From assembly GCA_964036045.1 (NCBI GenBank), contig OZ038379.1:76527992-76591991 (forward strand): a stretch of DNA of 64,000 nt, given 5' to 3'. Every line of letters begins with the position of its first letter. Within the stretch, counting starts at the first letter, position 1. Shown here in pieces: positions 12,601 through 58,289 of this stretch. The translations under genes were made by a program, and so were the position numbers. The notes beneath the pieces were generated by a model. It did not search any database, was not told the origin of the DNA, and was given only the letters and a program-made list of their open reading frames with translations. This stretch comes from Eutreptiella sp. 'Long Island Sound 2002' (lineage: Eukaryota > Euglenozoa > Euglenophyceae > Eutreptiales > Eutreptiaceae).

Positions 12601-13400
12601 AGAACCACGGCATGAGAGAACGTGCCAGGCAACACCCAACCCACACACCGCAAACCCAGGCCAGGATTGGCGGGCTGCAGGCAGAGCGCGCACACCAACA
12701 CACACACCCCAATATCCCAGCCAGGAATGGCGGGCCACAGCCGAAACCTGAACGCAAGCACAGACCCAAGCCACGCGCCTGAGCCAGGACTGGCGGGCAG
12801 CAGGCGGGGCGCGCACACAAACACACACACCCCAACAGCGCACGCGGGAGAGGCGGCCCGAAAGCCAAGACCCGAACCCCAACGCACACACCACAAACCC
12901 CAACGAGGATTGGCAGCGTACAGGCGGAGAGGGCACACAAACACACACACCCCAACAGCCCCAGCCAGGAATGTCGGGGCTGAGCTGAAACCCGAACCCA
13001 AGCACACACACCCACACCGCACACCTGAGCCGGGAATGGCAGGGTACAGGCAGAGCGTGACAAAAACACACACGTGCCACCACCCCAGCAAGCACTGGCG
13101 GGCTGGAAGCAAAAACGCCAACTGAGAAACCCACACCGCACACCCAAGCCAGGATTGGCGGGGTACAGGCGGAGCGCTCACACAAACACACACACCCCAA
13201 TATCTCAGCCAGGAATGGTGGGGCGCAGCGAAAACCAGCACCCAAGCACACCAACCCACACCAAACACCGCAGCCAGGACCGGCGGGATACAGGCGGAGC
13301 GCGCACACAAACACACACACCTTAACATCCCAGCCAGTATTGGCGGGTGAAAGCCATAAACCCGTACCCAGACACACACACCAAAAACCCAAGCTAGGAT
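12600..13400 (+). repeat. Minisatellite array M1 (~60-bp monomers)
   Basis: Diverged monomers of about 58-65 bp share the core CCAGCCAGGATTGGCGGGG. Three types alternate, distinguished by what follows the core: TACAGGCGGAGCGCGCACAC, CGCAGCCGAAACCCGAACCC, or TGAAAGCCAAAACCCG; each then runs into CA-rich spacer. The same monomers form arrays at 21640-22400, 26480-28190, 28689-29045, 41890-43090 and 48480-49130. The minus-strand ORFs here (GVCGVGVC-like repeats) are by-products. Confidence 0.85.
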
Positions 13401-21640: not shown

Positions 21641-22400
21641 ACACCCAACCCACACACAACAAACCCAATCCAGGATTGGCGAATGCATGCGGAGCGCGCA
21701 CACCAACACACAAACCCCAACACCACAGCCAGGAATGGCGGGGCAAAGCCAAAGCCTGAATGCAAGCACAGACCCAAGCATTGAACCCCAGCCAGGACCG
21801 GCGGGCTGCAGGCGGAGCGCGCACAAAAACACACATACCCCAACAGCCCAGGCTGGATAGGCGGGGTGAAAGTCCAAACCTGAACCCCAACGCACACACC
21901 ACAAACCGCAACCAGGATTCGCAGGGTACAGGCGGAGAGCGCACACAAACACGCACACCCAAAGACTCCCAGCCTGGAAAAGCGGGGCGCAGCTGAAACC
22001 CGTACCCGAACACACACACACACACACCGCACACCTGAGCCAGGAATGGTGGGGTACAGGCCGAGCGCGCACATAAACACACACGCGCCACCACCCCAGT
22101 CAGCACTGGTGGGCTGAAGGCCAAATTTCGAACTGACACACCCAATCCGCACACTCCTGCAAGGATTGGCGGGGTACAGGCGGAGCGGGCACACAAACAC
22201 AACACCCCCCAAAATCCCCACCAGCAATGGCGGGGCGCAGCCAGAACCAGCACCCAAGCACACCCACGGACACCACACACCGCAGGCAGGACTGACCGGG
22301 TACAGGCGGAGCGCGCACACGAACACACACACCCCAACACCTGAGCCAGGGTTGGCGAGCTGAGAGCCATAAACCCGTACCCGGACACACACACCACAAA
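21640..22400 (+). repeat. Minisatellite array M2
   Basis: Same three monomer types as M1 at 12600-13400, about 12 units, ending in a monomer that contains AAGCTAGGATCA and leads straight into the type B module. Confidence 0.85.
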
Positions 22401-26480: not shown

Positions 26481-28190
26481 CAACAGTGAACCCACACACC
26501 ACAACACCCGGGCCAGGATTTGCACGGCGCAGCCTAAACTCGAACCCAAGCACACACACCCACACCCCACACCCCGGTCAGCATTGGTGGGGTGCAGGCG
26601 GAGCGCGCACACAAATGCACACGCCCCAACATCCCGGCCAGGAGTGGCGGGGTGAAAGCCAAAACCCGACCCAACGCACACACAGCACAAACCCCAGCCA
26701 GGATTGGCGGGGTACAGGCAGCGCGCATACGAACACACGGCCCCGAACACGAAAGCCAGGGTCAGCGGTGTGCAGCCAAAACCTCAACCCAAGCACACAC
26801 ACCCTAACCGCACACCCCAGCTAGGACTGGCGGGGTGCACGTGAGGGGCGAGAACAAACAGACACGGCCAAATACCCCAGCCAGGATTGGCAGCGTACAG
26901 GCGGAGCGAGCGCAAAAACACACCCGCCTCAACACCCCAGCCAGCAATGGCGGGGCGCAGTGAAATCCCGCACCCAAGCACACACACCCCAACCGCACAC
27001 CGCAGCCAGGATTGGCGAGGTGCAGGCGGGGTGCGCACACAAACACACACGCCCCAACACTCTAGCCAGGCTTTGCGGCGTGAAAGCCAAAACCGGAACC
27101 CACAAGCAGGCACCAAGAACCCCAGCCGAAATTGGCGGGGTACAGGCGGCACGCGGGCAGGCGGGGCGGGCACACAAACACACACACCAGAACAGCCCAA
27201 ACAGAAATGCCGAGGCGCAGCCGAAACCCGAACCCAAGCACACGCACCCACACCGCACACCCGAGCCAGGAAGAGCGGGGTACAAGAGGAGCGTGCGCAC
27301 AAACACACACCTGCCAACGTCCCGGTTGGGAATGGCGGGGTACAGGCGGAGCAAGCACAAGAACATACCCGCCCCAACACCCCCGCCAGGAATGGCGCGG
27401 CGCAGCGGACATCCGCACCCAAGCACACACACCCACACCGCACACCCCAGGCGGAACTGGCGGGGTACAGGCGGAGCGCATACACAAACACACACGCCCC
27501 AACACCCGAGCCAGGTTTGGCGGGGTGAAAGCAAAAACCCAAACCGACACACACGCACCACGAACCCCAGGCAGGATTGGCGGGGTACAGGCAAAGCGCG
27601 CACCCAAACGCACACACCCCAACAACCCAGCCAGGAATCGCGGGGCGCAGCCGAGACCCGAACCCAAGGACACACACCCACACTGTACACCCCAGCCAGG
27701 ATTGGCGGGGCATCAGGAGCGCGCACACAAATGTAAACACCCCAACAGCCCAGCCATGACCCGCGGGGTGTAAGACAAAACCCGAACCCGGACACACGCA
27801 GCATGCACCAAAGCCAGGACTGGCCGGGTAGAGGTGGAGCGCCCACAAAAACACACACACCCCAACAACCTCGCCAGGAATGGCGGCGCGCAGCCAAAAC
27901 CCGAACGCAAGCGCACACGCCCACACCGCACACCCCTGCCAGGTACTGGCGGGGTACAAGCGGAAAGCGCACACACAAACACACACACACCCGAGCACCC
28001 CAGCCAGGAGTGGCGGGCTGAAGTGAAAACCCAAACCTACACAACACACCTCAGCCACAATCAGCCTAATCACACGCACCACAAGCCTGAGCCAGGATTT
28101 ACGGGTCGAAGCCCCAACCCGTACCGAACCACACACACCCTAGACCCCAGCCAGGATCGGCGGGGTTACCGCGAAACCCAGACCCAAACA
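26480..28190 (+). repeat. Minisatellite array M3 (largest)
   Basis: About 28 monomers of the M1 type, with the TACAGG, CGCAGC and TGAAAG variants in loose rotation. The last monomers (GGCGGGGTTACCGCGAAACC) lead into the type A 3' end, as at 43060 and 49110. Confidence 0.85.
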
Positions 28191-31460: not shown

Positions 31461-31476
31461 CTCGTCTTGCCCAGCC
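31461..31476. repeat. L1 target-site duplication, left copy
   Basis: CTCGTCTTGCCCAGCC, identical to 39574-39589. Confidence 0.92.
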
Positions 31477-31477
31477 G

Positions 31478-33336
31478 GAGACCGATGTACCACCAGTCAG
31501 ACACAGTGACCACGGCATACCACGCACGTGCTGGCACTGCGGCCCGGCAGCCCTCGACACTCCGTGGCCCCTGCTGCACCTCATCTCCACCCACTACCGC
31601 ACCCCCACCGCCGCCGCCACCGCCGACCAGCAGGCATGGCTCTCCCCCTGGTTTCACACGGTACCCCCAGACCACCCGGCGCACGTAGCCTGGACCCGAA
31701 CACCAACAGCAACATGGACGTTCACCAACGAGCGGGCAGACCCGGACAGCGTAGCCATAGAGTACGACCGCTGCGACCCACACCGCGCAGGACCTCAGGA
31801 CGCACCCATGCGCCCCCTACAGCACAAATGCCCCACCCTCCGCGGCGACAAAGACGACAAGGAGCGGCGACAGACCATCACGTGCCAGAAGTTCCACCCC
31901 AATACGGGATACCTCTTCCACCTGATGTACGCGTATATCACCCAGGGGCGCCCAGACAGGGGCCTCCTCCGCCTCACCCCACGAGCCCAGGCCATCATCA
32001 CCCAGGGGATAGGCGTCTATGCAGCGCCACTACTGCAACCCACGCAAATCACCGCCAGAACCGCCCAGGGGAATACCATCTACGTCTATCACCCGACAGC
32101 AATCGCCCGCCTACCCATACCCAGCGACACTCACATCATCTACTTCACTGACGCATCCGGCACCAAGCAACGCACCCCCACGGTCGGTTGCGCCTCAGTG
32201 CGCATCACCCGGCACACGGACAGCCTCCACGTGGAACACCACACCGGGGCCACCATCTTTGGGGCGTCCTCCCACGGCGAACTGCGCACCATGGCAGACG
32301 CCGTCACCGCCACACCGCCACCCACAACGATCCAGCCCCGCAACATCTGGGTAGTCGTGGACGCCACGGTCAACATCAACCTCACCAGGCGCCTTGCGGA
32401 CCTGCGCCTCCACAAAGCACTCCAGTCCGGCCTCACCACACAAGCGTTGGGACTATGGATGGCCTTCAAGGGCATGCACCCCCAGGACGCCCTACACATC
32501 ATCAAGCAGGACGCGCAGACACGCAGGCCAAACACCAGAACACCAACCACACCCCAGGGCTCGAACGTGTGCGACTCGACACCCCACATCACAGCCACCT
32601 GCAGCACCTGCCCCCGATACCCCCGGCCACACAGCCCCCCCAATGGATGCCCGAGGACACGCCGTACACGGATCGAGACAAGCAGTACCACTACCCCACA
32701 CCCATCCAGCAACTGGCCACCACACAGGGCCACCCAGCGAACACCGAACTCCTCCGACGCTTCGAAGACTCCGTCCACACCCCCCTCTACTACTCCGCCC
32801 TGCGCCCAGATTGCCTCCCAGCACACCTACAAAAGCCCCGACTCCAACTCGCCCTCGAACAGCTTCCCCTCCTCACCCGATACCACCGATGGTATGCGCG
32901 CCGCTCGATCCACGTCCCCGCAGGATACACCAAATGCATCTGCAGCCACGCGGAAGAAGAAACATGGGACCACTTCAAGGCGTGCCCCCTGTACAGAGGA
33001 CTGGACACCCTCACAGACTGGAACCCAACCCACACCATCGCACAGCACGCCGGATGGCTGACGCAGTCCCCGGCGACCCAACAACTCACCACCGTCCTCA
33101 AGCAGACTGAGGTGCTCGAGGCGGTCCGCAGGGGACTCGTCCCCACTGCCGTCTACACCTTGCTACGCACCCACGCGGAGGACCCCCAGGCCACGGCGGC
33201 GCACATGCAGCGGACGGCCGTTGCCAAGACGGCGGAGCAGCTCACATACCGCACCCACAAATACCTGCAGCATGCGGCAACCCTGCCCCCAACAGACCAA
33301 GCCCACCTCCTCAAACTCCTGTTCTACCAACCATGA
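31478..33336 (+). pseudogene. L1 pol C-terminus: RNase H domain and terminal zinc knuckle
   Basis: RNase H removes the RNA strand during LINE reverse transcription. The frame is open from the insertion junction: CWHCGPAALDTPW early (a Cys-rich motif), then the RNase H blocks IIYFTDASG (catalytic Asp at 32150), SSHGELRTMADAV (Glu) and IWVVVDATVNI (Asp). Near 32520 the frame shifts within the last RNase H block, and the text resumes in another frame with ADTQAKHQNTNHT. The C-terminus has CICSHAEEETWDHFKACP, the usual LINE end knuckle, and ends in TGA at 33334-33336, overlapping the ATG of the next ORF. Endonuclease and RT are absent because of 5' truncation. Confidence 0.85.
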
Positions 33337-34329
33337 GAACCTACCCCGTGACATACCAACACGGAACCCCCAACACGTCTACACACCGTCCACCGAGCAC
33401 AGCACTGGCACAGCACACACGGACACCACAGGCACCGCACACACTCCCACCAGCATGCGCGCGCCACCAGCCCCCATCCCCCCACGCCGCCGTCCGTCCA
33501 CAGGTACCACCAACCGCCAGCCACCGCATGTCCCCTCTGCGTTCGCCAGCGGCTACCACAGACAGCCCTGCCCTGCAACCCAGACCACTGGGTCTGCCTG
33601 GGAGCCGCGCACCGCCTCACCCACGGCCCCGACTGCGGGGACCTCAGCCCCCACCGGCGCGAGCGGCCCGCGGCCCCAGCCGCACCCCCCCCCGCCAGCC
33701 ACCCCAGCTTCTTCGGGTTCCTCACCGACACCCTCCGGAACCACCTGGGAGGGTACTACGTGGCGGACGCGGCGGACCACGCATGGACCATAGCCGTGGC
33801 CACAGGCAGCACACCCCTGCCCCCCAACAGCCCACCCCTACGCCACAGCGGAGGCGGCTTGAACGTGGCGGCCCGCCACATCCTCCTCGCCCTATACCTC
33901 CACCACCGAGACCTACACCTCCCAGACCCACAACTCCCGGCCCCCCAAGCAGCAGCCCTGACGCCGGAAGCGTGGGCCGACACGGCACCAGAGGAGATAG
34001 CAGCCTACCTCCGAATCACTTGCCGCCGGTTCAACAACGCCCTCGGCCGACGGAAGGGAACACCTTACCCACTCAGCGCACTCCTCTACCCGGCACACCA
34101 CCCCCACCCTGCACAACAGAAGCCCCCGGAGGGCTGGGCGTCTTTTCGGGACGCCCACCTGGCCGCCCCCAACGAGGCCCCCGCCACGCGGATGGGCCTC
34201 ACGGACCAGGAAACCTACGTCAGAGGCCTCAAGACGAGCCTCCAAGAGGCACACCGCTGGCACGCCCGCTCCCTGTCGCCCCAACGGGGACAGGGGGGTT
34301 CACCCGCCCCCGACACCCACCCGGCCTAG
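33333..34329 (+). CDS. L1 ORF3: protein with RING-like Cys/His cluster
   Basis: The ATG at 33333 overlaps the pol TGA (ATGA). A +1 slip is needed soon after, because the well-conserved-looking frame is open from 33352. Around 33525-33640 it reads CPLC, then C-x3-H-x2-C (PCNPDHWVC), then HRLTHGPDC: C-x2-C-x11-C-x3-H-x2-C, the first half of a RING finger. The positions of the sixth and seventh ligands are Ala and Gly (GGC, one base from TGC), so zinc binding may be impaired in this copy. A globular part follows (FFGFLTDTLRNHLGGYYVAD, LNVAARHILLALYLHHRDL, ITCRRFNNALGRRKG), ending in a basic helix. RING proteins often act as ubiquitin ligases; that function here is inference. Confidence 0.6.
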
Positions 34330-34545
34330 AAGACCAAGACAGGTCAGGGGGCCCGCCAACGCGCCCGCCAGCAGGGCGCGACGCCCCGACCAAGGCCCGG
34401 GTCCAGCCACACCGCACCACCCCACGCCCAGACCCCCGGGGCACACCAACAACACCGCCACCGCCAGCGCCCACCACCACCACCGTACCGCAGCACCCCA
34501 ACCCTGCAGCCCAGTCAGCCACCACCGCCCACACACGTCCACACC

Positions 34546-36780
34546 ATGCCAGGACCACCATACGTGCAGAACCAGGGGACATGGCACCACCAACACCACC
34601 ACCACGCCCCCGTCCCTCCCAACCCCTACCCCCTAATGCCCCCATGCTACAGCGACCCCCACCAGCTACATCCCCACCACGCCCCAGCACAACCAGGCCC
34701 CGAGAACCACCCACCCCACATAGCGCACATCACCGCACCACACCATCACCTATTCCACCGACACCAGCCCCTGCGACCACACCCACCAACACCGGGGTAC
34801 CACACACAACCAGCGGACCCTCCACACCGACACCACGCGGTCCAGCACCACCCGCCGCCCCCGCTACACGGGCCCACGACATACGAGCCACGGTACACCC
34901 CCATGGACCCGCGAGGAGCCGCGCACGCACGCCAGCAACACCAGGGCCTAGTAGGAGCGCCCCACCACCACCAACAGCCCCCTCACCCACACCCCATACC
35001 AGCGAGCACCATCCACCAGCAGCCACCCATTACATACTGACCACAGCCCCACCCGGACGCTCATGCGGCCGCCTCCCACCCACACCCCGGCACCACAACC
35101 AGTCAAGAACCGCAAGGGCCGCACGGCGCACACACGCAACACCCACACGACACACAGGGACGCCCGGACCCCCAGCCAGCACAACACCCACCCCCGCCCC
35201 CCCCACCCCACCACCACCAGCAGCCCCCCCACCCACACCCCATACCAGCGAGCACCATCCACCAGCAGCCACCCATTACATACGGACCACAGCCCCACCC
35301 GGACGCTCATGCGGCCGCCTCCCACCCACACCCCGGCACCACAACCAGTCAAGAACCGCAAGGCCCGCACGGCGCACACACGCAACACCCACACGACGCA
35401 CAGGGACGCCCAGACCCCCAGCCAGCACAACATGCACCCCCGCCCCCCCCACCACCAACAGCGCGACCCCCACACCACCCCCCCCCCCCCCCCGAGACCA
35501 GGCCACGGACACAACACGCGGCAGCCAACACCAGTTAATTGAGATCGATACCCCCGCCGACAAACGCCACCGCGAATCCCCCCTCCCGCGACCGCCACAA
35601 GAGACCCCATCACCGGACCCCACGCGCGACAACGACAACCACCCCCCCCAACCCACACCACCCCCCGGTCACACCCCGCACCACCAGCCGCCGCACCGGC
35701 CGAACCCTACGCCCTACACAACCCCGGAGCGGTACAGCAGCACCTCCAGGGACTCGGGGAACAGGACGTCGTGCTGTACTTCCGCACCTCCGGCACCAGC
35801 ACCCCCATCCGGGCGGCCACCCTGGTCCAGGCGGCCACCCTGGGGGAAGGCGTCAGAGACTTCCTCTTCGACGCCTTCCTCCACGTCGCCCGACACGAGC
35901 GCCCCACATGCGCCACCCCAGACGGCGAGAGCCCGCCCCCCACGGGGAGCCGGATCTGGGTGCCCCCCATCGACTGGGGGCGACACCTGGTCGGACACCC
36001 CGTGCCGGGGCGGGTGGACACCAAGGGCCGCACCCGCTACCACGAGCCCGACATGGCCCACCCCCCACCCGGCGCCATCCCCGACAGCACCAATGAGTGG
36101 GAGCGGGAAACATGGGTAGCCCGGATGGCCTCCCTGAGCAACTTCCGGCACCACGTCCCGGGGGACATCCCCACCCCCGACGAGCAGCAGCCAGCCCCCT
36201 CCACGTACATGACCCTCATGTACAATCTGCACTACACCCTCTCCACCACCAACTACCACGCACCCACAGACCACTGGGTGGTACACGGCACCGACTCCCT
36301 CCTCCCCGCCGACTACACCCCCCCCACACACAACCCAGGCACCGACACGTACGCCAGGGGGGACGACCCGGACGACCCCCACATTTGGGGCACGTGGGAA
36401 CCCCAATCCCTGGACACGCTGCTCTCCATCCGCAGCGGCTACCAGGGCCTTGGTAGGGCGATGTATTGCCTCGCCAAGTGGACCCAACGGACCTGGGGGA
36501 TCCCCACGGACCGATGGGTGTGGGTGGTCACGCTGCGCCCCCAGCAGAGGGAAGCCCCCGCAAACCGCAGGGGACCCACCCCCCCACGCCCCGGCACCCT
36601 ACAACTATGCCCGTACATGGTTGCAGCCCGCCTCATGACGCTGCTGTGGCCGGGCCCAGACACCCCCACCTCACAGAGGAGGACATGCCCGGCATCCAGC
36701 GATGCTTCTTCCAGACCCTCGACTACCTCCAGCAAACACACCCGCACGTCCTGGAGCAGATATGGCCACCCCCCGGGTAA
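34546..36780 (+). pseudogene. L1 ORF4: Pro/His-rich region plus unknown globular domain
   Basis: From an ATG at 34546 the protein is very rich in Pro, His and Gln (HHQHHHHAPVPPNPYP) and contains an in-frame 246-bp tandem duplication (about 34960-35451). The first copy has TGA at 35038 where the second has GGA. After a run of C at about 35475 the frame slips. A globular part then reads GLGEQDVVLYFRTSGT, EGVRDFLFDAFLHVARHE, RIWVPPIDWGRHL, WERETWVARMASLSNFRHH and RAMYCLAKWTQRTWGIP. One more slip near 36660 leads to EEDMPGIQRCFFQTLDYLQQ and TAA at 36780. It is Trp-rich and unlike any family I know. Two slips and one stop make this copy non-functional. Confidence 0.55.
34960..35451 (+). repeat. 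246-bp in-frame tandem duplication in ORF4
   Basis: CATACCAGCGAGCACC starts at 34995 and again at 35241, a period of 246 (82 codons). Copies are nearly identical; the notable difference is TGA (35038) versus GGA (35284). Confidence 0.85.
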
Positions 36781-37530
36781 CCCACGTGCCCGCGCAGCCG
36801 AGACAACGCCGCCACGCCAGCACCAGCACGCACGGATCACCAGGGAAAACGCGCGCACACGCCCGGTGCCCGAACCTGCACCCTCGTTCTCGCTACTTAC
36901 AGGACCCAGCATCATACGCCCGCCCCCGAAGCTCAGGACCCTCCACCGTCTCCCACGGCCCTCTCCTCCGCCTCCGACTCCACAATCTCAACCACCACGA
37001 CCACCTCATCCACCACCACCACCACGTCCTCATCCAGCACTCCACCCCCCAGGCCGCGGGGGACACCTCCCAAACGGGCCCCCAAAACCAACCCCACCGC
37101 GAGCAGCCTTGCCGCCGCCAAGGCCCACGCCCCGACGAAGCCCACACCCACGACCCAGCCGAAACCCAAGACCGCCGCCAAACGGCCACCCAAACCCGTC
37201 AGCACGCCACGACCGCAACCCGCAGCCAAGCCCAAACCCAAGTCCAAACCCGGTGCCACGACGGCAGCGCGAGCCCGGCCCCATGAGGACGTCCTCTATG
37301 ACATCCGGCCCCAGCCGTCCCAGGCCCGAAGGCAGCAGCGCCCAGCGCGGCGCCCCCCCAGCGTCACCGACGCCACCGCCACCACCTTCATGGCGGAGCA
37401 CGCCGCGGCCGAGGCACGACGCACCTCGTCCCGCCACCTCTCAAAGCCCGCACCCCAGGCCCACGGACCGCTTCCGACCAGGCCAGAACGACGCCAGGGT
37501 CCGCCAGCAGCGTCCCCGCCCTCCTACTAA
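36781..37530 (+). CDS. L1 ORF5: Lys/Ala/Pro-rich basic protein
   Basis: Open in the same frame as the ORF4 stop, ending TAA at 37528-37530, about 250 residues. A Ser/Thr run is followed by a Pro/Lys/Ala-rich basic tract (AAKRPPKPVST, AAKPKPKSKPG) resembling histone H1-type or other nucleic-acid-binding tails. It then ends with an Arg/Ala-rich segment containing EDVLYDIRPQPSQ and AEHAAAEARR. The start is unclear; translation might couple to the ORF4 stop. An ORF1-like RNA-binding role is a guess from charge only. Confidence 0.5.
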   Translation, partial: PTCPRSRDNAATPAPARTDHQGKRAHTPGARTCTLVLATYRTQHHTPAPEAQDPPPSPTALSSASDSTISTTTTTSSTTTTTSSSSTPPPRPRGTPPKRAPKTNPTASSLAAAKAHAPTKPTPTTQPKPKTAAKRPPKPVSTPRPQPAAKPKPKSKPGATTAARARPHEDVLYDIRPQPSQARRQQRPARRPPSVTDATATTFMAEHAAAEARRTSSRHLSKPAPQAHGPLPTRPERRQGPPAASPPSY

Positions 37531-37536
37531 CCCTCG

Positions 37537-38235
37537 ATGACAGCCCACATACAACGCATGCCCCACTACCGCCGCCGCCGCGAGTCCCCGCCCAACCCCG
37601 AGGCGGAGACCGTACGCGCACACCCGCGGGTCCACATCCGCGTGCGCCCCCACTCCCCACGCACCCCCACGGAACAGGACTACGAGGAATCCCCCAGGCC
37701 CGCCACCGCCACCGGTCCCCACGACCCCGTCACACCCACCCACGCCCACTCCTCCGCCCAGGACCGCAGGCCCACCGAGGAACAGTGGTGGCAGCGCTGG
37801 ACCCACACGCAGCTCTGGGAGCTGCGAAAGTGGGCCCGGGGAGAGCCCTCCCTCGAGGGCCTGGTCCATCGGCCCCGCAAGGGGTCGGTGGAGAACTGCC
37901 GCCTCCGGCCGGCGGGGGTGTGGATGCCGCAGGCCGCATGGGAAGCCATGCTGGCCGATGCGCTCCACCCCCTGGGAGTCCACCCCCGCAACCTCCACGC
38001 GCCCCAGGACCACCCGTATGTCCTCAGGCGCCTGCGGGAGACCCTCCAGGAAATGCAGCGAGACGGCATCCGCCTGTGGGACATCACCCAAAGCCCAGCT
38101 CCGCACAAACACACCCCCTCACCACCCCACAAGCGTCGGTGCACCGACACCGGCGACACCCACAGCACCCCAGGAGCCCTGCGCGCCACACAACACGACG
38201 CGCCTGACCCCCCGGGCAGCGGCGCCGCCATCTAA
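37537..38235 (+). CDS. L1 ORF6: hypothetical 232-residue protein
   Basis: Starts at ATG 37537, six bases after the ORF5 TAA, in keeping with a closely packed multi-ORF transcript. The N-terminal third is basic and Pro/Thr-rich. The middle is globular, with EEQWWQRWTHTQLWELRKWA, GVWMPQAAWEAMLADAL and a helix VLRRLRETLQEMQRDGIRLW. The C-terminus is His/Pro/Thr-rich. No family recognised. The frame is intact over its full length, unlike ORF4. Confidence 0.55.
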   Translation: MTAHIQRMPHYRRRRESPPNPEAETVRAHPRVHIRVRPHSPRTPTEQDYEESPRPATATGPHDPVTPTHAHSSAQDRRPTEEQWWQRWTHTQLWELRKWARGEPSLEGLVHRPRKGSVENCRLRPAGVWMPQAAWEAMLADALHPLGVHPRNLHAPQDHPYVLRRLRETLQEMQRDGIRLWDITQSPAPHKHTPSPPHKRRCTDTGDTHSTPGALRATQHDAPDPPGSGAAI

Positions 38236-39573
38236 CCCCGTTACTCAGCAAACCACCACCACGGGGCGCCACACCACAACGCACATGACAACGAGCACCA
38301 CCACGCCCAAAGGCACCGAACCGAGGCCCGCTACCGTCGCAACCGCCTAACTGAGCCAGAACCCAAGCACAAATCAAACCCGAGCCACACCCCGAAATTG
38401 CTAACCCTTGACTCCTAACCAAGCCCGCCGAGGGAACAACGTAACCACAGCCCACACCCACAGCCCACACAGCCGCCTAACCAGCCAGCTCCAGAAGCAA
38501 AGAGACACCTCACCAAACCCACCCTGACCCAAGCCCGTGTACATCAGGACGCGCGAGCCGCACCCCTGGGGCGCGACCGCCGCCACAGTGCCGACGACAC
38601 ACGCCAGAGGACACAACGCTATTGCACCGCCGCACCAGCTGCCCATGCCTGTGCCTGCAGTGTACGCGCGCCCCTGTTTTTTTCTTTTCTTTTTTTTTTC
38701 CCCCCAAAAAAAAAAACAAGTAAAAAAAAAAAAGAAAAAACAGGTAAAAAAAAAACGAAAATTAGGGGGGGAGGAAGAGGGACACAACCACCCATGGCAC
38801 ACGCGCACCGCACACAGCACGCACACCGGTGAACAGGAGCCCAGTGGCCCAGGACACCGCACATGCAACACAACACACCAACCGAGCACACCGGTGAACA
38901 GGAGCCAGCTGGCCCAGGACACCGCAGACACACCACAGCAAACCGCGCGGGCATACCGGTGAACAGGAGCCCGGCGGCCCAGGACACTGCACACACGTAG
39001 GGCGGCCGAGGGATAGGAAAGAACCAATACCCCATGGGTCGGACGCACTGGGGCGACCCAGCCGACCCAGCGGGCCAGTGGCAGGAGCGGTACTCCAAGG
39101 CCACCCGTCCGAGCCCGGCCAGGCTGCATCGGGGACCATGGCAAACGTCACCCGGAGCCATGGAAGCAACCGGTGACAGGCGAGCCGGTACACAGTCCAG
39201 GACGGGGTCACCTGCCAAGCAGAGTGGCCCCGCAACTCAAGCCACAAGGGTGAGGCGGTGGTACCGTAGACAAGCGGGAGCAATACCCCTTGTGGTGAGA
39301 GATACTCCACACGGCTGGGTAGCCCCCCAGAGCTGCCGCCCAACGGAGGGGGCATGTGGCCCTACCCATGGACACATGTGGGGACACCCTCCAACCTGGG
39401 ACACATGGACCGGGTGGCCGCGACAATGCCTTCCCAAGCACATGCGGGAGCGGCTCAAGAGGCACCTGACATAGGGCAGTGGGAGGGACAGGACGTCCCC
39501 TTGGTAAGACCTTCTTCCTGCAATGTCAAAGGAGGCATCCCGAGCTCCCGAAGATACCTACCTACCTACCTAC
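38236..39573 (+). other. L1 3' UTR
   Basis: Non-coding. It holds a T10-C6-A11 hairpin (38690-38716) followed by A-rich runs, a 65-bp repeat in three copies starting at 38825, 38890 and 38955 (each with ACCGGTGAACAGGAGCC and GGCCCAGGACAC), and a G/C-mixed segment to the tail. The tail is (TACC)4TAC at 39555-39573. Confidence 0.7.
38825..39000 (+). repeat. 65-bp tandem triplicate in the L1 3' UTR
   Basis: Three copies at exact 65-base spacing, differing by a few substitutions. Confidence 0.85.
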
Positions 39574-39589
39574 CTCGTCTTGCCCAGCC
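39574..39589. repeat. L1 target-site duplication, right copy
   Basis: Identical to 31461-31476 and directly after the (TACC)n tail. Confidence 0.92.
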
Positions 39590-41889: not shown

Positions 41890-43090
41890 ACATAGTTTTA
41901 AAAAAACCCACGCCAGGATTGGTGGTGTACAGGCAGAGCACGCACCCAAACACACAAACCCCAACACCCCAGCCAGGAATGGCGGAGCTGCACCCGACCC
42001 AAAGCCAAGCACACACACCCACACCGCATACCCCCGCCAGAATTGGCGGGGTACAGGCGGAGCGCGCACACAAACACACACACCCCAGCACCCCAGCCTG
42101 GATAGGCAGGGCGAAAAACAAAACCGGAACCTAGACACACGCACCACAAACCCCAGCCAGGATTGGTGGGGCACAGGCGGAGCGCGCACACAGACGCAGA
42201 CACCCGGAGACCCAGCCAGGAATGGCGGGGCGCAGCTGACATCTGAACCCAGGCACACACGGCCACACCGCCGAACCAAGCCAGAAAAGGCGGGGTACAG
42301 GCGGAACGCGCACACAAACACACATGACCCAACCTCTCTGAGGGGATTGGCGGAGTGAAGGCCAAACACCAAATGGACACACACACATTACAAACACCTG
42401 CCAGGATTGGCGGGGTACAGGCGCAGTGCGCACACAAACACACACATCCCAACACCCCAGCCAGGAGTGGCGGGGCGCAGGCAAAACCCGAACCCAAGTC
42501 CACACACCCGAGCCATGAAAGGCGGGCTACAGGCGAAGCCCGCACACAAACACACACACCCCAACACCTCAGCCAGGATTGGCGGGGCAAAGTCCAAAAA
42601 CCGAACCAACACCCACACACCACGAACACCAGCCAGGATTGGCAGGGAACAGGCGGAGTGCGCAAACAAAAACACACACCCCAAGACCCCAGCCAGGAAT
42701 GCGGGGCGCAGCCGACTCCCGAACCCAAGGGCAGACACCCACACAGCACACCCCAGGCAGAAATGGCGGGGTGCAAGCGGAGCGCGCACACAAACACACA
42801 CACCCCAACACTCCAGCCAGGTTTTGCGGGGTGAAACCATATCCTAAACCAACACACACACACCGGCATCACACATCCCAGCCACAATTGGCGGGGTAAA
42901 GCCAAAGGCCTTGCCAGAATGCACGCACCACAGACGCCGGCCAGGATTGGCTGGGTACTGGCGGCGCGTGCGCACAAACACACACACCGCCACACCCCAG
43001 TTAGGATTGGCGAAGAAAAGCCAAAACCCGTACCCAAACACACACACCCTAGACCCCAGCCACGATTGGCGGCATTACCGCGAAACCCAA
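41890..43090 (+). repeat. Minisatellite array M5
   Basis: About 19 M1-type monomers with the CCAGCCAGGATTGGCGGGG core. Confidence 0.85.
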
Positions 43091-47847: not shown

Positions 47848-49638
47848 AAACCGGAAGCACCAGCAGCCACCCGGTTAGCCACACCGAATGCCGACCAGTG
47901 CGTGCACCAGCCAGGGACCAGGGAGGGCAGAGGGAGGAACAGGCAGACCCCCCCCGCAAAAAAAAGGGGGGGGGACAAGAGACAGACACACAGCCGCGAA
48001 GCCGCGCACCCACTCCACAGGAGGCAGGCAAACCCCCTAGCCAGACAGCATCGAAGGCGGCACCCACGAGGCCCCCCGAAAGCACACCGGAGGACCGCCC
48101 TGCCAAAGGCAGCAACACCCAGCCGAGGGCAGCGGCCCACCAGAGGAAGGGACACCCCAGACACACCAACACCCCCTCCACTGGAGCAGTGATGGGCAAA
48201 GAAAAAACAACCCTTAGGCGCAGCCCAAGCGAGAGGGGAAGAGGGGACGGAGACCAAGAGACCCTAGACCGGGACAGGCAGCGGCGGACACCACAAAGCC
48301 ACGACACGACAGGGCGGTAAACCAGACACATCCCCGCAGCCCGGAAGAAAAAAAAGGGGGAGGGTGGGAGACAGACCCCATCCACAGCAACTCCCGCACA
48401 CCCCCACCCCACGGACAGCCCCACCAGAAGGTGGCGGGAAACAGGTGCGGCGCACGCAAGAGGCCACGCGCCCCAACACCCAAACCAGAAGAAAAGCGGA
48501 GTGCGAGCGAAACCCAAACCCACACACACACATCACCCTGCCAGGAATGGCGGGGTACAAGCAAAGCATGCACATAAACACACACACAGCCCAACCCCCC
48601 GGCCAGGACTGGCGGCGCGCAGCCGGAACCCGAGCAGCAGCACATACACCCACACCGCACATCCCGGCCAGGAGTGGCGGGGTACAAGCGGAGCACGCAC
48701 AGACACACACACACCCCCCAAACGCCCCAGCCGGGAATAGCGGGGCGTAGCCACAACGCGAGCCCAGGCACACACACCCACACCGCACACCCAAGCCAGG
48801 AGTGGCGGGGTACAGACAGAGCGCGCACACAAACACGCACACCCCCTAACGGCCCAGCCAGGAGTGGCGGGGGGCAGCCGCCAACCGAGCCAAACACACA
48901 CACCCACACCGCACAGCCCGGCCAAGAGTGGCAGGGTACAGGCGGAACGCGCACACAACCACGCACGCCCGAAAACCGAGCCAGGAATGGCGGGGTGCGA
49001 GCCAAAACCCAAGCCAAGCCGCACACACCACAACCCCCAGATGGGAATGGAGGGGAGAAGCCAAAACCTGTACCCAAGCACACCCACCGAAGACCCGATC
49101 CAGAGTTGGCGGGGTTACCGCAAAACCCAAACCAAAGCACAAGCACCACACAACAGTACAAAAACCGGCTTCCAAAGCCCGGGCAGTGAGGCAGCCCGTG
49201 CCATGCAGCTGACCGGGCCAAAGAAGATCCGGAGACCGGGCGTAAGGCTGCATCCTAAGGCCAGCGCTGCTTTGGGACTCGAGGCAGAGCGTACCGACAC
49301 CCAAGGACCTCGGAACCCCAGTACCAAGAACATGCATGCATGCCTTGGGAACGGGATACCCAGGAAGTCCGGTGAACCCCTAGGGTTCTGCCCCAAGGAG
49401 GTGACGTGCGCAAGTACAAGGGCACAATCTCCCAGCGAGACAAGTATCCCACACTGGCGGCAATCAGCCCTCCTGGTGTTGCCCGCCGCCGCTTTGTTGG
49501 GGGCCACCGGTCAGGTCTAGCGTGGAGTAAGTCGCATCCCCTCTTCAAGCGCGGACCCTCTTCCCGTCCGTCACAGGGGCGACGCCAGGGGGACACAGGG
49601 CGCGCCTCTCCACGAGCGAGTGCACCTATCTTCCTACC
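47848..49638 (+). mobile_element. R5: 1.79-kb non-coding retroposon inserted in G3 gag
   Basis: The element has a C/A/G-rich, T-poor 5' part (a C-run, then GCAAAAAAAA and a G-run near 47949), a minisatellite (48480-49130), the type A 3' region, and a degenerate CTAC tail (CCTATCTTCCTAC). Short near-identical direct repeats on both sides, with Gag coding resuming beyond, show it moved as one unit. No credible ORF: it would depend on another element's enzymes. Confidence 0.75.
48480..49130 (+). repeat. Minisatellite array M6 in R5
   Basis: About ten M1-type monomers with the core CCAGCCAGGAGTGGCGGGG and alternating TACAGG/CGCAGC followers. Confidence 0.85.
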
Positions 49639-51010: not shown

Positions 51011-53250
51011 CCACAACCCTGCTCCCCCTCCGGGGCGACCTCCTGTCACCTTCGCGACGTGCAACACCCTGCGCCGCACACACGCCAAAGGGACAATGCC
51101 GGGCCACCACGCCCGCACGCCCGCGCCCACAGCATGTGGACGGCGGACCCCAACTGCCCGCCCCCAGGACGGGCAGCCGGGGGAGGACGAGCGCCTAACC
51201 TCAGACGCCTCTCACAACGGCGCAAGGCACCCTTCCAGGGGACGCCCTCCCGCCACCCGCACAGGCGCGCAAAGCCGGCACGCAAGAGCGCACGCTGTGG
51301 GACTGGTGCTGGGTCCCCGAGCCCACACCACCCGCGCCCGGGCAATACGGAGCGGCGGGCCTGGCTGCCCGCCCCCAGGATGGGCGGCCGGGAGAGGGAA
51401 AGCGCTTGACACGAGACGCTCCTCACAACAGTGAGGGGTCCCACCCCCGGGCTGAAGTCCCGCCACCCCTGCGCCGCGCAACACCCCGCAAGGCACGCAC
51501 GCTAAAGGGACAGTGCCGGGACCCCACGCCCGCACACCCGTGCCCACGGCATGTGGACGGCGGACCCCGACTGCCCGCCCCAAGGATGGGCAGCCAGGAG
51601 AGGACGAGCTCCTGATCAGCGCAGACCCGTGCGTGGAAGCCCCAACAACGGCGCGAGGCACGCCCGCCAGGGGCGCCCCCCCGCCACCTCCGCAGTGCGC
51701 GTGTTGTGGGGCTGATGCTGAGTCGCCATGGCCACACCACCCACGCCCGAGAAACGCGGGCAAGGGGGCCTTGCTGCCCGCCCCAAGGACGGGCGGCCGG
51801 GAGAGGGAAAGCGCCTGACACCAGACGCCCCTCACAGCAGTGAGAGGCCCCCACCCCGAGGCGACCTCCCGCCACTCCCGCGGTGCGCAGCCCCGCACAG
51901 GGCAAACACGCCAAAGGGAAAGTGCCAGGCCCCAGACCCGCGCACCCGCGCCCATAGCACATGGGCAACGGACCCCGGCTACCCTCCCCAAGGACGGGCG
52001 GCCAGAAGAGGGGGACCGCCTGGCCCCAGACGCCCCTCAAAACGGCGCGAGGCACCCCCCCAGGGGAAGCCCGCCGGCCAGCCCCACAGCACGCAGGAAC
52101 GCACGCTGTGAGACCGGTGCTGGCTCCCCACGCCCACACCAGCCGCGTCCAGGAAACGCGGGTAGCGAACCCTGGCTACCCGCCCCCCGTAAGGGCAGCC
52201 GGGGGAGAGCGAGCGCCTGACCCGAGACGCCCCTCACAACGGCGAGAGCCCCCCCCCCCCCGGGGAGACGTCCTCCTGCCCCCGCGGTGCGCAACAGGCC
52301 ACAGGGCACGCACGCCAAAGGGGCAGTGACAGGTCCCCACATCCGCACACCCGCGTCCACAGCACGTGGGCAGCGGACCCCGAGCCCAACCACCCGCCCA
52401 GAAGACGGGCAGCTGGCGGAGGACGACCGCCTAACTTCAGGCGCTCCTCAGAACAGCGCGGGGCACCCCCCAAAGGGATGCCCTCCCGCCACCCCCACAG
52501 CATGCAGGAGCGCACGCTGTTGGGCCGTTGCTGCCCCCCCACGCTCACAACGCCCGTGCCTGGGACGCACGGGCAACGGGGCCTGGCTGCCTGCTCCAAG
52601 GATGCGCGGGCAGGGGAGGGAGAGCGCCTGACACCAGACGCCCCTCGCAACAGTGAGAGGTCCCTCCCCCATGGGCAACCTCCCGCCACCCCCAGGGTGC
52701 GCAACAACCTGCAGGGCAGTACCGGATCCCCACACCCGCACACCCGCGCCCACGGCACGCGGGCAGCGGACCCCGACCAACCGCTTCCAGGGCGGGCAGC
52801 CGGGAGAGGATGGGCGCCTAGCTTCAGGCGCACCCCTTGACGGCGCGAGGCGCCATCCCCGGGGACGCCCCCACGCCACCCCCACAGGTCGCGACGCCGG
52901 CTCGCACGAGCGCACGCTGTGGGCCTGGTGCTGATTCCCCACGCCCGCACCACCCACGCCTCGAGGACGGGCAGCCGAGACAGGGGGAGCGCCTGTCACC
53001 GGACGCCCCTCAAAATGGAGAGGGATCCCCACCCTGGTCGGCAACCTCCCGCACGACACCCACCACGGGGCACACGCGTGGGCAACAAGGCCTGGCTACC
53101 TGCCCCACAGATGGGCGGCCGGGGGAGAAGAGCGCCTGACGCCAGACGCCCCTCACAACATTGCGAGGTCCTCCCCCGGGACAGCCTCCTGCCACGCCGG
53201 GGGCGCGCGGTGCCGGGTCCCCGAGGGCGCACCACTCGGCCTTGGGCGGC
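51010..53250 (+). repeat. 5' monomer array of L2 (~205-bp units, ~405-bp higher-order repeat)
   Basis: About 11 units, each containing a block like GCCCCAAGGACGGGCAGCCGG followed by GAGCGCCTGAC. Two unit types alternate: one carries GCACGCTGTG (near 51291, 51700, 52101, 52511 and 52911, spacings 400-410), the other ACACGCCAAAGGG-like words. A tandem array placed before ORF1 recalls the promoter monomers of mammalian L1. Minus-strand ORFs through it are repeat artefacts. Confidence 0.85.
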
Positions 53251-53257
53251 CCTGCGC

Positions 53258-55059
53258 ATGTGCAAGGTGCCCCCACGGGGCCCGGAGAGCAACCCCCGGG
53301 CGCCCCTGCAATGTTCGGCAACGGCCCGCCGAAGTGTACGATGCAGAGCCAAGGTCAGGCTCTGCAACCCGCACCCCACGACACCCACAGCACGGGCCGT
53401 AAAAAGAGCCCCTACAGGCACAGGAAAGCCACAGGAGGTCCGTACCCCGTCGCTGCTCTCAGGCACAGCAACACAGCAATGGCAGAACCCACGGCCCCAC
53501 GCTAAACACGCTCCCGACCTCGGACGCTGGACGCAGCGCATGAGGTCATCAGGGCGCTGGGACTTCAAAGACGCGGCAGGGGCCCGCCCCCCAGAGGACG
53601 CAGAAAGGGACTCCGACGTGGAGCTGATCCCAGAGGCCCCCACAGGCGGCAAGCCAGCGGGACCCACGCCGCCGGCGGGCAGCGTGCAAGCCCTCTGCCC
53701 CGCGTGTAAGCGGGGGCACTACACCAGAGAGGGCTGGTGCCCGAGGCAACACCCCCGGCCCGCCGTCAACGACGGGGCGTTGCCTGCAGTGGGGTACGCG
53801 GCCACACGCGCCGCCCTGCGCTTCGGTGTGGCGTGGGGCTGGATCAAGGATGAGACCACGCGCGGCAGCGTGACCATCCAGGAACCTGTTGACCGGGTCG
53901 CCCACACAGGCCAGACGGAAGTGGCCCTGCAGACCCGGGGCTGCTGCGATGGACCGGCTGAGGGAATCGTCGTGGAGCCCACAGGGATGGTACTGGTCCT
54001 GGCCGCGGACAAGGTCCGACGGGTACTTCACGCGTTTCGAGTGCGGCGTACGCGCCCGCAGTGGACCATCCAGGTGTACACCCCGCCACAGGCCTGGCCT
54101 TTCTCCACGTGGCCAGTACTCGCCATCAATCGGCACCTGGCACCGGAGGGCACACCAACGGTCACTGTAGAGGAAATTGCCCGCGACCTGAACGACTGGC
54201 CGGCCGACCAGGACGTTGCCTGGCGCAGACCCCAAGGCGGTCTCCCAGCGGCTCCCACAACGGAGGGGTCCAGCCTCGCGGCTACCCTCCAGCAATACCC
54301 TGACAAAAGCGTGGGCCCCTTCCTGCAGACAGGTACAGTCCCGGCCGCCACGCCAGAGTCAGGATGGAAGTGGGACGCAGAGGAGGCAGAACCGCTGCCG
54401 CCCCCCTGGATCCCCCCACTTTGGTACTGGCCCACGGGTGTACCGGCCCATGCCAGCCAGGCTGTCAAAGGGGCCTTTCCGCCGCCCCAGCCCCCCGGCA
54501 CCGCCCTGCTCCGCAGCCTGCAGGCGGGAGCCGCCTGGGTTCGGTGGCGAGAGAACGGATGCCCGGGCCTGTACTTCCCCCTGGTGCAAGGGCGAACTCT
54601 GCTTCACGCCGAAGACATGTGGACCGTGGAATGGGGGGCGTTCGTGCCCGACACGGCGTGCAGATGGATAGCGGCTGCCGCCCCGCAACCCATGCGGTTG
54701 CCACCAGCGTGCAACCGCCTCCCAGGAACAGTCCCCCCCTTGACCCACCGTCACGCCCTCACACAGGAAGTGTGGCGGGCCCTACTGAGCCACCGAGGGA
54801 ATGGATGCCGACCCCGGGCGCAGGATACCCAGCGGAGCTGGTGCTTGAGCAACTAACCAGCCCCAGGCCTGGAGTCTGCCACGTCCTGCACAGGGCGACA
54901 GCCCCAACAGAACAGCTCACCAACGAGGTGCTGGACCTGGCGCTGGAACCCCTGCGGGTACTCTACCCGCAGGCCCATATCCGGCCGGCGGGTACGCCCA
55001 ACCAGCTTGCCCGCCTAGGACTGCAGCGCGCGTCGAGGCCACCCACGCGAAAGGCGTGA
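53258..55059 (+). CDS. L2 ORF1: zinc-motif protein
   Basis: Probable nucleic-acid-binding ORF1. The first Met beyond the array is at 53258; the frame itself extends further upstream into the repeats. A basic/Pro-rich N-terminus is followed by a CCHC/H-type motif CPACKRGHYTREGWCPRQH (about residue 145). A globular region then has AALRFGVAWGWIKDETTRG, GMVLVLAADKVRRVLHAF and PQWTIQVYTPPQAW. A further block follows (AGAAWVRWRENGCPGLYFP, EDMWTVEWGAFVPD). Near 54790 a frameshift moves the text to a second frame (VLEQLTSPRPGVCHVLHRA), ending TGA at 55057-55059. I know no named family for the globular part. Confidence 0.6.
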
Positions 55060-56561
55060 TGGGACAGTGGCTGGCACTCCACAACCCGTCCACTGTGCAA
55101 GGCCACTGGTACCTGCACCAACTCCTCTTTCTCCCGCAGGGGGTCCCGGAGCACCGCCGACAGAACCCATATGGCACGCACCCGGAGCGCCTGGGCAGAC
55201 ATATCTTCCCGCAGCCGGCCCCGCCCGCCCTCCCGCAAGGGCAGGGCCAGGGGGCACTGCTGCAGGGGTCCCTACATGACGTGAACACCGCGGAGCAGCA
55301 AAGAGGAAGCCGCAACGCTGACGGGGCCGAGCCGGACTGCGGGGTGGTGGCCTGGACCGCGGCCTGCAGGAACCTCGCCCGGGACACCACGGGACTCAGG
55401 CTGTACGGGCGGACAGCACGGCGCTGGCGTTAGAGGTGGCGGCTGTAACCATGGGTCCCGTGGCGGCCTGGCCGGCGCGCTTGCTGTCCCACGTCCCCTG
55501 CCAGGATGCGCGACCCCGCCGACCAGCCGCGACGGACACACCAACGGCGCCCCTCACGGCGGAGCAGCTGTATGCCGTCGCACGGGTGCTGCTGGCGGAC
55601 AGCGCAGAAAGCTTCGTCCGCCACCACGGCCCGGCACAGATTGGGGGCACCATACAAGGGCCGCAGCGCGATGCGCTGCGGCAGTGGCACGCCACCCTCC
55701 CTAATCGCACCCGCATCAGGGACAGGGGCGACGGAACACCCCCTCCCGGACCCCAGCAAGCGGAAGCGCTGGTGATACAGACAGCGGGCTACCAAGCCAT
55801 CCTACACGGCCACGCCGGGGGCTACCGGTCACACATCCTGGCCGAAGGCAAATCGACCGTCTGGCATGGCGCCACAAGGCAAGGGGCCTTTCCGCCGCAT
55901 GTCGATGGGCGGCAGGTGCCCACTCAGGCCTACTATATGGCGGGGACCCCTGGCCGCTGGCAGTCCTGCTGCACAGCATCAGCGCCCATAGCAAGCGGCA
56001 GGAGCCGGGATGGGCCAACCCCCCGAGCTGGTCTGGAGCCCCGACACGGAGGAGCATCTGCGGGCCGCATGGCAGGGCGACGCCATCCGGACCACAGATG
56101 TCCCGGACCTCCACGCGGGGCCCATCACGCAAGCCTGCCCGGCAGCCTCCCTTGCGGTGGCGCAACAAGGACAGCAGAGCCTGAAGTGGGTGGTCTGCAT
56201 GTTCAGCCTGGCGGACACACATATCGCCGTCTGCGACCCTGAAAGGCTACCGGGGTATGAGGCCGTGATCCGTGTGGCAGACTGCACCCGCGTGATTGTC
56301 AAGGCGCTGCGGGACGGCGAGCACCACACCCTCCTGCTCCAAGCCTGCCTCAAGGACAATGCCAGGGCAGCAAAACCGGGGCTGTTGCCGGCGACAGCGC
56401 TCCCCGCTGACCTAGGGCTCGAGCTGGCAGTCCCGACCACGGTGTACCACTGGCTCCCGGCCTTCCACGACCTGCGGTGGAGGGGCAAGCCCGACCGCCA
56501 AATCGGCGCCACACACTGGCAAGAGTGGCTACAGGCCGACACGCAGCGCGCCACTGTCTGA
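55059..56561 (+). pseudogene. L2 ORF1b: second ORF before the endonuclease
   Basis: The ATG at 55059 overlaps the preceding stop (TGATG). It reads MGQWLALHNPSTVQGHWYLH, slips near 55405 to ALALEVAAVTMGPVAAWPAR, and continues AEQLYAVARVLLADSAESFV and QTAGYQAILHGHAGGYRSH. Another slip near 55990 leads to ELVWSPDTEEHLRAAWQGD, KWVVCMFSLADTHIAVCD and FHDLRWRGKPDRQIGATHW, and it stops at TGA 56561. No domain recognised. At least two indels; the order of blocks suggests one ancestral protein of about 490 residues. Confidence 0.5.
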
Positions 56562-57131
56562 GGCCTCGGACCCGCGCCCACGGCCAGGGGCCTCGACGTG
56601 TCGCCCCCCTGCTGCGCGCTGGCGCCGCACACAGTCCCACTGGCCAGCCTGCCCTTTGACCCCGCACCAGAGAGCTCCGTCCGCAAGTCGGTACGGCTCC
56701 CTCCGCCGAGGGGGGCCACGGGACCCACCAAATGGCCCCTTTGTGCAGACAAGTTCTACACAAGTGGGGTGATGCTCGAGCACCTGGCATGGAACGCGGT
56801 GCACACTGCCGCCCCGGCGGAAGACAATGAGGCGGCCTCCCACATCCTCCAGGGACGGGCATGGAGGTCTCTGTGGCACGCCCCATACGCCCAGCGCCCC
56901 CCCTCCCAGGCCCCCGACAAAGTGGCGGCCGCGGAAGCGGGAGAAGAGGCGACAGACGCTGCCCCGGGGGATGGCGGTGCAGCCCACCAGAGGTCCATCA
57001 CCGCGAGACTGGCCACTGCCCCCCTGGGGGCCCCCCTGGGGGCGGTCTCCCCACTCCCAATGGCCCCAGCACCCCCCGGAAACCTGGCGCCCCCGGCGGA
57101 CCCCGCGGCGAAGCCGGTGAGGGTCACCTGA
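56562..57131 (+). pseudogene. L2 frame between ORF1b and endonuclease
   Basis: Open from the ORF1b stop to TGA at 57129-57131, in the same frame as the endonuclease. Contains KWPLCADKFYTSGVMLEHLA and a Pro/Ala-rich linker. It may be the N-terminus of ORF2 or the end of ORF1b. Confidence 0.4.
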
Positions 57132-58289
57132 CTCCAGGAGGATGAGTTGGGCGAAGCCCTCTGGCTCCTCTCCTGGAACCTGCGCAGCGGCCTCGTCCCG
57201 CCGGACTGGTCCCTCCGGGACACACTCTGACGACGGCGGGGGCCGGCGGCCTCTACCAAAAAGGAGCACCACATCACTGGCATGCTGCTCCAGGAGGGGA
57301 GCTTTGCAATCATGCTTCAGGAAACAGCGATCGCCACCCGGGCGCAGGAGATGCACGTGGCCGCGGCGCTTCGGGACAAGGGGTACACGGGATCCACCTC
57401 CACCTTGAGAGGGGGAGGCTTCCTCACCGCCGTCAGCAGCAAGTATGTGGCCGAGCACGAAGTGCTCAGTTCTACGGAACCCGTCCCTAGGAATGCCGCG
57501 GCCCTGGAAACCCGCATCGACAAGGGCGGCCTCACCTTCATCAATGTCCACAGGCCGCAGGCAGGCTCCACGCCCTGGGCGGGACGGGCAGCGTGCTGGG
57601 CCGACATAGAAATGTATGCCACGGCGCGCAGCCTCGGACGGAGGCACCCGGTGGTCATTGCCGGCGACACCAACATCTACATGGATGCCACCACCAACCC
57701 GGCCACGAAGCGCTCTTGCGCAGTCTGGGAGGTCTGCGGCTTCCAGAGGGCCAGAGCAGGCTGAATTGAGGACATGACCCCCACGCTCCACCCGTCCTGG
57801 CACCGGATGGAGACGTTCCTGGTCAACGAGCCCCTCCTGCCATGGTCCCTGCGGGAGAGCGTCTGGGCCCGCGGCATGGCGCACCCCGAGGTGATCGGGT
57901 TGGACCACCTCCCGGTCCGCCTGGCCCTGCCCGGCCTCCTCGACACTGCAGGGCACGCGGCGGTGCTCACCTCCTACAGCCACACGGAGGGCCGCCTCCT
58001 CCCGTACGACGTCCAGGCCGCGCCCGTCCAGCGCTGCCTGTGCGCGGCGGTCACCGTCACACAAGGCGAGCTCTCCCTGGCGCCCTGGCTGCGCCCCGCT
58101 GAGCAACACGTCTACACTTCCATGCCCGCAGCGGCCGTGGACAAGTTTTTTGAACACCTCCACGCGGGGCATGACGCCCTGGCGCGCAGACTGGGGCGCC
58201 AACAGCCGTCCCCAGGGGGGGGCAGACCCGGCGGGAGGGGACCCCCCCGAGAGCGGGAAACGGCTCCAGGCGGCTATTCTCCGGTATGA
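57132..58289 (+). pseudogene. L2 ORF2: APE-like endonuclease domain
   Basis: Would nick target DNA to prime reverse transcription. Motifs of the exonuclease-endonuclease-phosphatase fold in order: LLSWNLRSG (57170), IMLQET (Glu, 57311), GGGFLTAVSSKY, FINVHRPQAG, VVIAGDTNIYMD (57655) and GLDHLPVRL, the place of the usual SDH. In-frame TGA codons at 57228 and 57762, and the one at 57129 before it, break it, but the motif spacing is otherwise normal. The frame ends at 58289, with the following RT linker in the next frame. Catalytic Asn, Glu, Asp and His are all present. Confidence 0.8.

Follow-up and report, generated by a model that had tools for sequence, protein, structure and literature searches.

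Long interspersed nuclear elements (LINEs) are usually regarded as compact elements, the genes of which normally end with pol. LINE-1 (L1) is about 6 kb long and ends with pol, and mouse L1 carries tandem monomers at the 5' end. Terminons, Penelope-like giants found in bdelloid rotifers, carry several accessory open reading frames (ORFs) and are found in many 5'-truncated copies; as described in the available parts of two reports, they feature a Penelope-type reverse transcriptase (RT), are endonuclease-deficient and telomeric, and the RT unit makes up their 3'-terminal part (PMC6431247, PMC5718144), from which we infer that the extra ORFs lie before this unit. Retrotransposons flanked by long terminal repeats (LTRs) may carry, according to one of the two texts in its available part, an ORF3 or an env gene after pol (PMC5718144). 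In the available sections of a review from 2019, on giant transposons of eukaryotes, LTR, Penelope-like and Polinton giants are covered, and no giant LINE appears (PMC6431247). Neither giant LINEs nor LINEs with ORFs after pol were found in the titles and abstract starts of the open-licence papers listed. Here we describe an insertion residing at positions 31477..39573 (plus strand, as all features of the element given below) of a 64,000-nucleotide stretch of contig OZ038379.1 of Eutreptiella sp. 'Long Island Sound 2002', hereafter the window. Judging from sequence comparisons, the insertion is very probably (about 0.85) a dead, 5'-truncated copy of a giant polycistronic LINE encoding an apurinic/apyrimidinic-type endonuclease (APE), which features an accessory module after pol and is abundant and recently active in this genome.

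The insertion is bordered by perfect 16-bp target-site duplications (TSDs; CTCGTCTTGCCCAGCC at 31461..31476, the second copy of CTCGTCTTGCCCAGCC at 39574..39589), and ends in a (TACC)n tail (39555..39573) touching the right duplication. The chance of finding a perfect 16-mer at two fixed positions is about 4^-16. Homology to genomic copies starts at 31474-31475 and stops at 39570-39576 in the five copies reaching the 3' end; the homology limits coincide with the repeats, which therefore sit at the edges of the element. The left end falls inside pol, and the original prediction of a single 5'-truncated LINE insertion is thus confirmed. Four of six copies fetched from the genome align to the insertion over its whole length, at 94.5-95.6% identity. 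The 3' part of pol, including most of an RNase H-like domain, is found in frame 1 at 31478..32515 (87.7% and 44% identical to the homologous proteins P0001 and P0010, respectively), the C-terminal part, marked by a CxC...H...C motif, in a shifted frame at 32509..33336 (95% identical to P0001, to 33333, and 45% to P0010). The pol frame terminates with the TGA at 33334-33336, and P0001, a homologue of 1,727 amino acids (aa), stops at the same residue. Downstream lie ORF3 (33352..34326), ORF5 (35543..36777, ending QIWPPPG-stop), ORF6 (37531..38232, marked by a W..L.ELRKWA...MPQAAWEAML.DA domain) and a 3' untranslated region (UTR; 38236..39554).

The genome (2.28 Gb, 2,205 contigs) was searched with the ORF5 protein. 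The 126 places scored, window included, are the best-scoring of 10,386 first-look candidates and no random sample; they are 93-100% identical, and in 111 of them the matched part has no stop. ORF5 matches served to fetch six more copies, and a seventh, C2b, was added. C1 aligns to the whole 8.1-kb insertion apart from a 570-bp insert in its 3' UTR, C5 only to position 6,422, inside ORF6, other sequence lying beyond. C2b agrees with the other copies but has an inversion and an insertion, and the stretch fetched stops before the tail. The order from pol to ORF6 is collinear in all six fetched copies, as in C2b with its later insert. All the seven other copies in which the pol end was fetched run on into the same downstream ORFs, as the original prediction would require, and a pol followed directly by a bare 3' UTR was seen neither in these seven copies nor in two downstream regions of a second family described below.

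C6 is a complete copy, spanning 22.8 kb between perfect 53-bp duplications, and shares 17.9 kb with C4. Tandem 5' arrays are followed in C6 by ORF1, pol, ORF3, ORF5, ORF6, the 3' UTR and (TACC)n; within pol, the endonuclease precedes the RT, the RNase H-like domain and a Cys/His end. The whole order is enclosed in one pair of duplications, and the element thus moved as one piece. The window copy corresponds to the last third only, as the arrays and the large ORF1 lie upstream of it in C6. The arrays, made up by 64-bp and 65-bp units, belong to the element, since C2b has the same arrays on the same body (44.8 copies of the 65-bp unit in C6, 13.5 in C2b). Among the first 40 C6 self-matches by position (>150 nt), the 65-bp unit only is common to the 5' end and the 3' UTR; the window 3' UTR holds 2.7 copies of a 65-bp repeat (38821-38996), 73-84% similar to the unit of the C6 5' array. 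On either side of C4 lies a direct repeat of 640 bp (L030 5429-6068, L032 3899-4538; the two are 98.6% identical), apparently an unusually long TSD.

A separate element, or a host segment, carrying ORF3 to ORF6 might have been inserted between pol and tail. Inserts are common in this family (C1, C5, C27, C2b), and when 20 other sequences were projected on L002, the match set in only near the beginning of the conserved ORF5 part in three (L012-L014), which hold ORF5-ORF6 with no ORF3 before. 5' truncation would explain these three, the 3' ends of which, and with them any duplications, lay outside the fetched stretch. A composite origin is at odds with the identical junctions in the seven other copies with pol end fetched, and with the module order of the second family and the TSD of one of its copies. 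Spacing is also near-constant: a probe from the 5' region was scored at 40 places, of 1,255 candidates, and eight of the 40 have a listed ORF5 match 5-30 kb downstream on the same strand (C6 and C2b included; 118 of the 126 ORF5 matches were used, eight on small contigs being left out), at 14,548-14,557 bp in five cases, and at 14,434, 17,292 and 12,447 bp in the others. We regard nesting as extremely improbable.

By RT, endonuclease, duplications, truncation and tail, the element is a LINE. In Pfam, P0001 matches RVT_1 (E 7e-15) and Exo_endo_phos (E 1e-6); Exo_endo_phos is above cut-off in P0001 and copy C4, and is not reported in P0010, though that stretch aligns with P0001. The AP-like endonuclease lies upstream of the RT, as in LINEs, and the RVT_1-type RT is closest to LINE ORF2p, the four PDB sequences matched by P0001 at E <=0.01 being all LINE-1 ORF2p (E 3e-4 to 1.4e-3; the best, E 3e-4, over residues 355-601). 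Acidic residues are conserved in the FTDAS/FVDAS, SHGEL and VVVDA/VVDA stretches of the aligned pol proteins. The D, E and D positions of the RNase H-like domain are invariant in four aligned proteins, and GNG-x-x-D, an RNase H motif, is present in the three aligned proteins that reach it; Pfam gave no RNase H match. An RNase H domain after the RT marks the I-like clade of LINEs, of which the element is a possible member. TSDs vary in length (16, 53, 15 and 640 bp), copies begin at different points as a result of 5' truncation, tails are formed by the simple repeat TACC, and no LTRs were seen, again as in LINEs. The layout deviates, three supported coding blocks following pol where LINE genes usually end with it, yet ending with pol is a habit of layout, and not what defines membership. 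Assignment to Terminons or other Penelope-like elements would call for a Penelope-type RT and the absence of endonuclease; APE and RVT_1 are found instead.

The RT part of pol retrieved 38 proteins, at 81-97%, 45-55%, 35% and 28% identity. P0010 heads the 45-55% group, and its family (family 2) has a pol 55% identical to that of the family of the window copy (family 1) over the RT part, and 51% overall. In a genome search with P0010 the best 27 of 35,849 first-look candidates were scored, and are 99-100% identical; in this selected set, 26 of 27 have no stop in 1,737 aa. Identity and openness of these copies point to recent activity. About 9.8 kb after pol was fetched for two family-2 copies, L042 and L043. 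In both, pol is followed by an ORF5 homologue (~26% identity over 300 aa, E 1.6e-14) and, 3' of it, by one of ORF6 (in L042 37% over 97 positions, E 4e-5; in L043 34%, E 1e-4). With reversed queries as controls, the lowest E was 1.1 among the family-2 sequences and 0.20 for the remainder of the window. The two homologues reside in one 1,388-aa frame in L043, and are separated by a frame change in L042. ORF1 is found upstream of the family-2 pol, 37% identical to family 1 over 729 aa (E 1.6e-109). A family-2 copy at C3 lies between 15-bp duplications, and both family-2 copies looked at end in (TACC)n. A search with the family-2 ORF5 retrieved 165 proteins, presumably encoded in this genome; the best 120 of the 165 are 55-98% identical. 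By homology, the diverged family is thus seen to keep the order ORF1-pol-ORF5-ORF6, with no detectable ORF3 between. The claim of kilobases of coding DNA 3' of pol in one LINE is upheld.

ORF5 and ORF6 might alternatively be a host gene captured by 3' transduction, carried as read-through cargo with no role in transposition. Transduction by L1 is established, as reported in the available part of the 2019 review (PMC6431247), and the position of the module, near the 3' end, is that expected of transduced DNA. The capture, however, would have to be older than the divergence of the two families, the pol of which is 51-55% identical, and the cargo would have to have been kept in frame since; such an origin is very unlikely. 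ORF5-ORF6 could be an old part of the ribonucleoprotein machinery of the element, most likely structural or RNA-binding, with ORF3 perhaps a lineage-specific gain or loss; these roles are the least certain of our suggestions.

The open frames 3' of pol agree with those of the original prediction. The strand is T-poor, and long open frames therefore mean little by themselves; one further frame is open over 1,002 aa at 33111-36116. The region after pol could accordingly be a very long 3' UTR, with frames open by chance in DNA poor in T and rich in C. Low T leaves few stops, and long open stretches occur in each of the three frames. Coding status was monitored by a codon-phase model trained on the pol of C4 alone, gains being expressed per 300 nt. 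In C6, gains are ~19-50 for ORF1, 9-42 for ORF3, 35-45 for ORF5 and 16-26 for ORF6, each in one frame, C6's own frameshifts aside, vs. a median of 4.5, a 95% value of 14 and a maximum of 20 in shuffled ORF3 sequence. Arrays and 3' UTR of C6 score mostly 0-11, with peaks at 15, 21 and 22. With ORF1 added to the training, the ORF6 peak reaches 41-44 in C27, C20 and the window. Trained on family 1, the model also supports the fused frame of L043 (ORF5 36-45, ORF6 35, in one frame), as it does ORF1, ORF3, ORF5 and ORF6. Within-family ratios of nonsynonymous to synonymous change (dN/dS) were obtained from a pool of 21 young copies, in 24 frame tests. ORF5 gave 0.71 (72 synonymous changes vs. 57.8 expected, z 2.6), three frames of the 3' UTR, used as control, 0.83-1.10. 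The expectation of dN/dS below 1 was borne out for ORF5, and not for ORF3 and ORF6, the ratios between such young copies being otherwise uninformative. Conservation of ORF5 and ORF6 in family 2, with negative reversed controls, joins codon phase and the ORF5 ratio in opposing the notion of chance frames, which is very unlikely overall and largely refuted for ORF5 and ORF6.

Several observations weigh against a giant LINE with coding blocks after pol. Ratios indicate no constraint within the family for ORF3 (1.12, z -0.54; 26 synonymous changes vs. 28.2 expected), ORF4 (1.05, z -0.30; 43 vs. 44.5), the stretch after ORF5 (0.91, z 0.76) and ORF6 (0.92, z 0.50; 38 vs. 35.7). The z of 2.6 is modest, as ORF5 is the best of the 24 frame tests. 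In 184 windows of other DNA of the 64-kb stretch codon-phase gains had a median of 5.5, a 95% value of 22.7 and a maximum of 44, some of them scoring as high as the ORFs; high-scoring windows may include genes or other elements. ORF6 in C6 alone scores only ~15-26. The signals of an earlier scan, carried out on seven copies, were weak and in part contradicted each other, and the codon-phase model took its place. ORF1, ORF3, ORF5 and ORF6 have no Pfam match, and ORF3 found no match in the family-2 sequences compared (best E 4.5). In none of eight copies does the ORF3 frame contain an AUG upstream of +859, and the start of ORF3 is thus unexplained. The check for TSDs, made with C27, C5 and C2b left aside, gave none for C20 and a match of just 8 bp for C1. 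The extreme 5' end, i.e. the first few hundred bp, was seen in one copy only.

The original prediction had four or more ORFs after pol. ORF3, ORF5 and ORF6 are supported, while its ORF4 (34330..35535) is a Pro/His-rich, low-complexity continuation of the ORF3 frame, with no clear coding signal (codon phase ~0-5); this is a further point in favour of chance frames. ORF3 and ORF4 form one frame where unbroken, in two of eight copies compared (C6 and C27). The ORF4 stretch contains a 246-bp tandem duplication (34960-35453). As to the RING-like protein, ORF3 has a Cys/His-rich stretch (CPLC...C...C...H...H...C), the likeness going no further than a Cys/His pattern, with no Pfam match. The frame of the histone-tail-like protein (36781..37527) is not favoured by codon phase in its first ~400 nt, directly 3' of ORF5, where the frame one base back scores modestly better. 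A single frame of at least 446 aa follows the ORF5 stop at 7 of 19 other ORF5 loci (L005, L006, L011, L014, L015, L017 and L018), and holds at least one of two tags of the ORF6 region.

All the genes would be carried by one RNA, on which target-primed reverse transcription would start at the 3' tail, and translation of the ORFs after pol from that RNA would rely on coupled termination-reinitiation or on recoding. An ATG overlaps the pol stop (ATGA; ATG at 33333..33335) in eight of eight family-1 copies, the ORF3 frame being a different one. Pol and ORF3 share a frame across TGA at +1 and +16, kept in the same eight copies. At 7 of 19 other ORF5 loci, ORF5 and the frame holding ORF6 are in the same frame, with one stop between. 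Of 20 predicted ORF5 proteins aligned for family 2, 9 start MPCMTQ, and the corresponding ATG lies within the pol end in L042 and L043. The ATGA overlap, the shared frames parted by stops and the overlapping ORFs of family 2 make coupled termination-reinitiation or recoding the likely route to the ORFs after pol, as far as can be read from the DNA. The chances are about even that we are dealing with a LINE lineage having a second, possibly nucleoprotein, module after pol, expressed by reinitiation or programmed recoding from a unit of ~23 kb.

The frame of the ATG at the pol stop is open for 928-931 aa in four of eight copies (928 aa in the window copy); as a candidate for ORF3 it was ruled out by codon phase. 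The first ~100 nt of 33333-33540 weakly favour yet another frame. A CCCCCCG just 5' of the ORF5 stop (36769-36780) is a possible frameshift site, codon phase being then better one base back.

The window copy is damaged at several sites. Pol is frameshifted near 32510-32590, ORF5 between ~36600 and 36700 (frame 1 to ~36640, then frame 0), and stops at 34327 and 35038 interrupt a frame unbroken elsewhere, the latter, a TGA, falling within the ORF4 stretch; a further stop is at 37528. Rfam gave no match at gathering score on the window and 14 loci.

Other repeats reside in the window. An older LINE-like element (51054-60644) has its own ~200/410-bp tandem array upstream, and an RT stretch (59115-59693) 25% identical to P0001 (E 9e-5). 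Open frames resembling, by eye, a Gypsy-type LTR gag-pol are found on the minus strand at 1-6470, parts of which recur at 88-90% in the C4 flank. Satellite-like arrays of 60/120/245 bp, with AGCCAGGAATGGCGGGG-like units, are dispersed at 12642-13400, 21644-22341, 27257-28050, 41904-42864 and 48518-49029.

If true, a LINE of ~22.8 kb with conserved genes behind pol would widen the possible contents of LINE ribonucleoproteins, make one ask how an RNA of ~23 kb can be copied in one run by the reverse transcriptase of a LINE, and be an instance of polycistronic translation occurring naturally in a nuclear element of a eukaryote.

The element departs in layout and length from the LINEs known to us; to our knowledge, a coding module downstream of pol is found only in LTR retroelements. 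With LTR retrotransposons, as depicted in the part of the literature available, it shares the extra ORF 3' of pol, but no LTRs were seen in it, its tail is a simple repeat, and its duplications measure 15-640 bp. Terminons, as far as the available accounts describe them, are similarly giant retroelements with several accessory ORFs and many 5'-truncated copies; in contrast, the element analyzed here encodes an endonuclease of the APE type and an RT like that of L1, and its extra ORFs follow pol. L1 is matched in having ORF1 before pol and, in pol, an AP-type endonuclease and an RT, and in 5' truncation, TSDs and the presence of a 3' tail; the present element differs from it by the length of its 22.8-kb copy, by the ORFs behind pol, by an RNase H-like domain and by a tail of (TACC)n.

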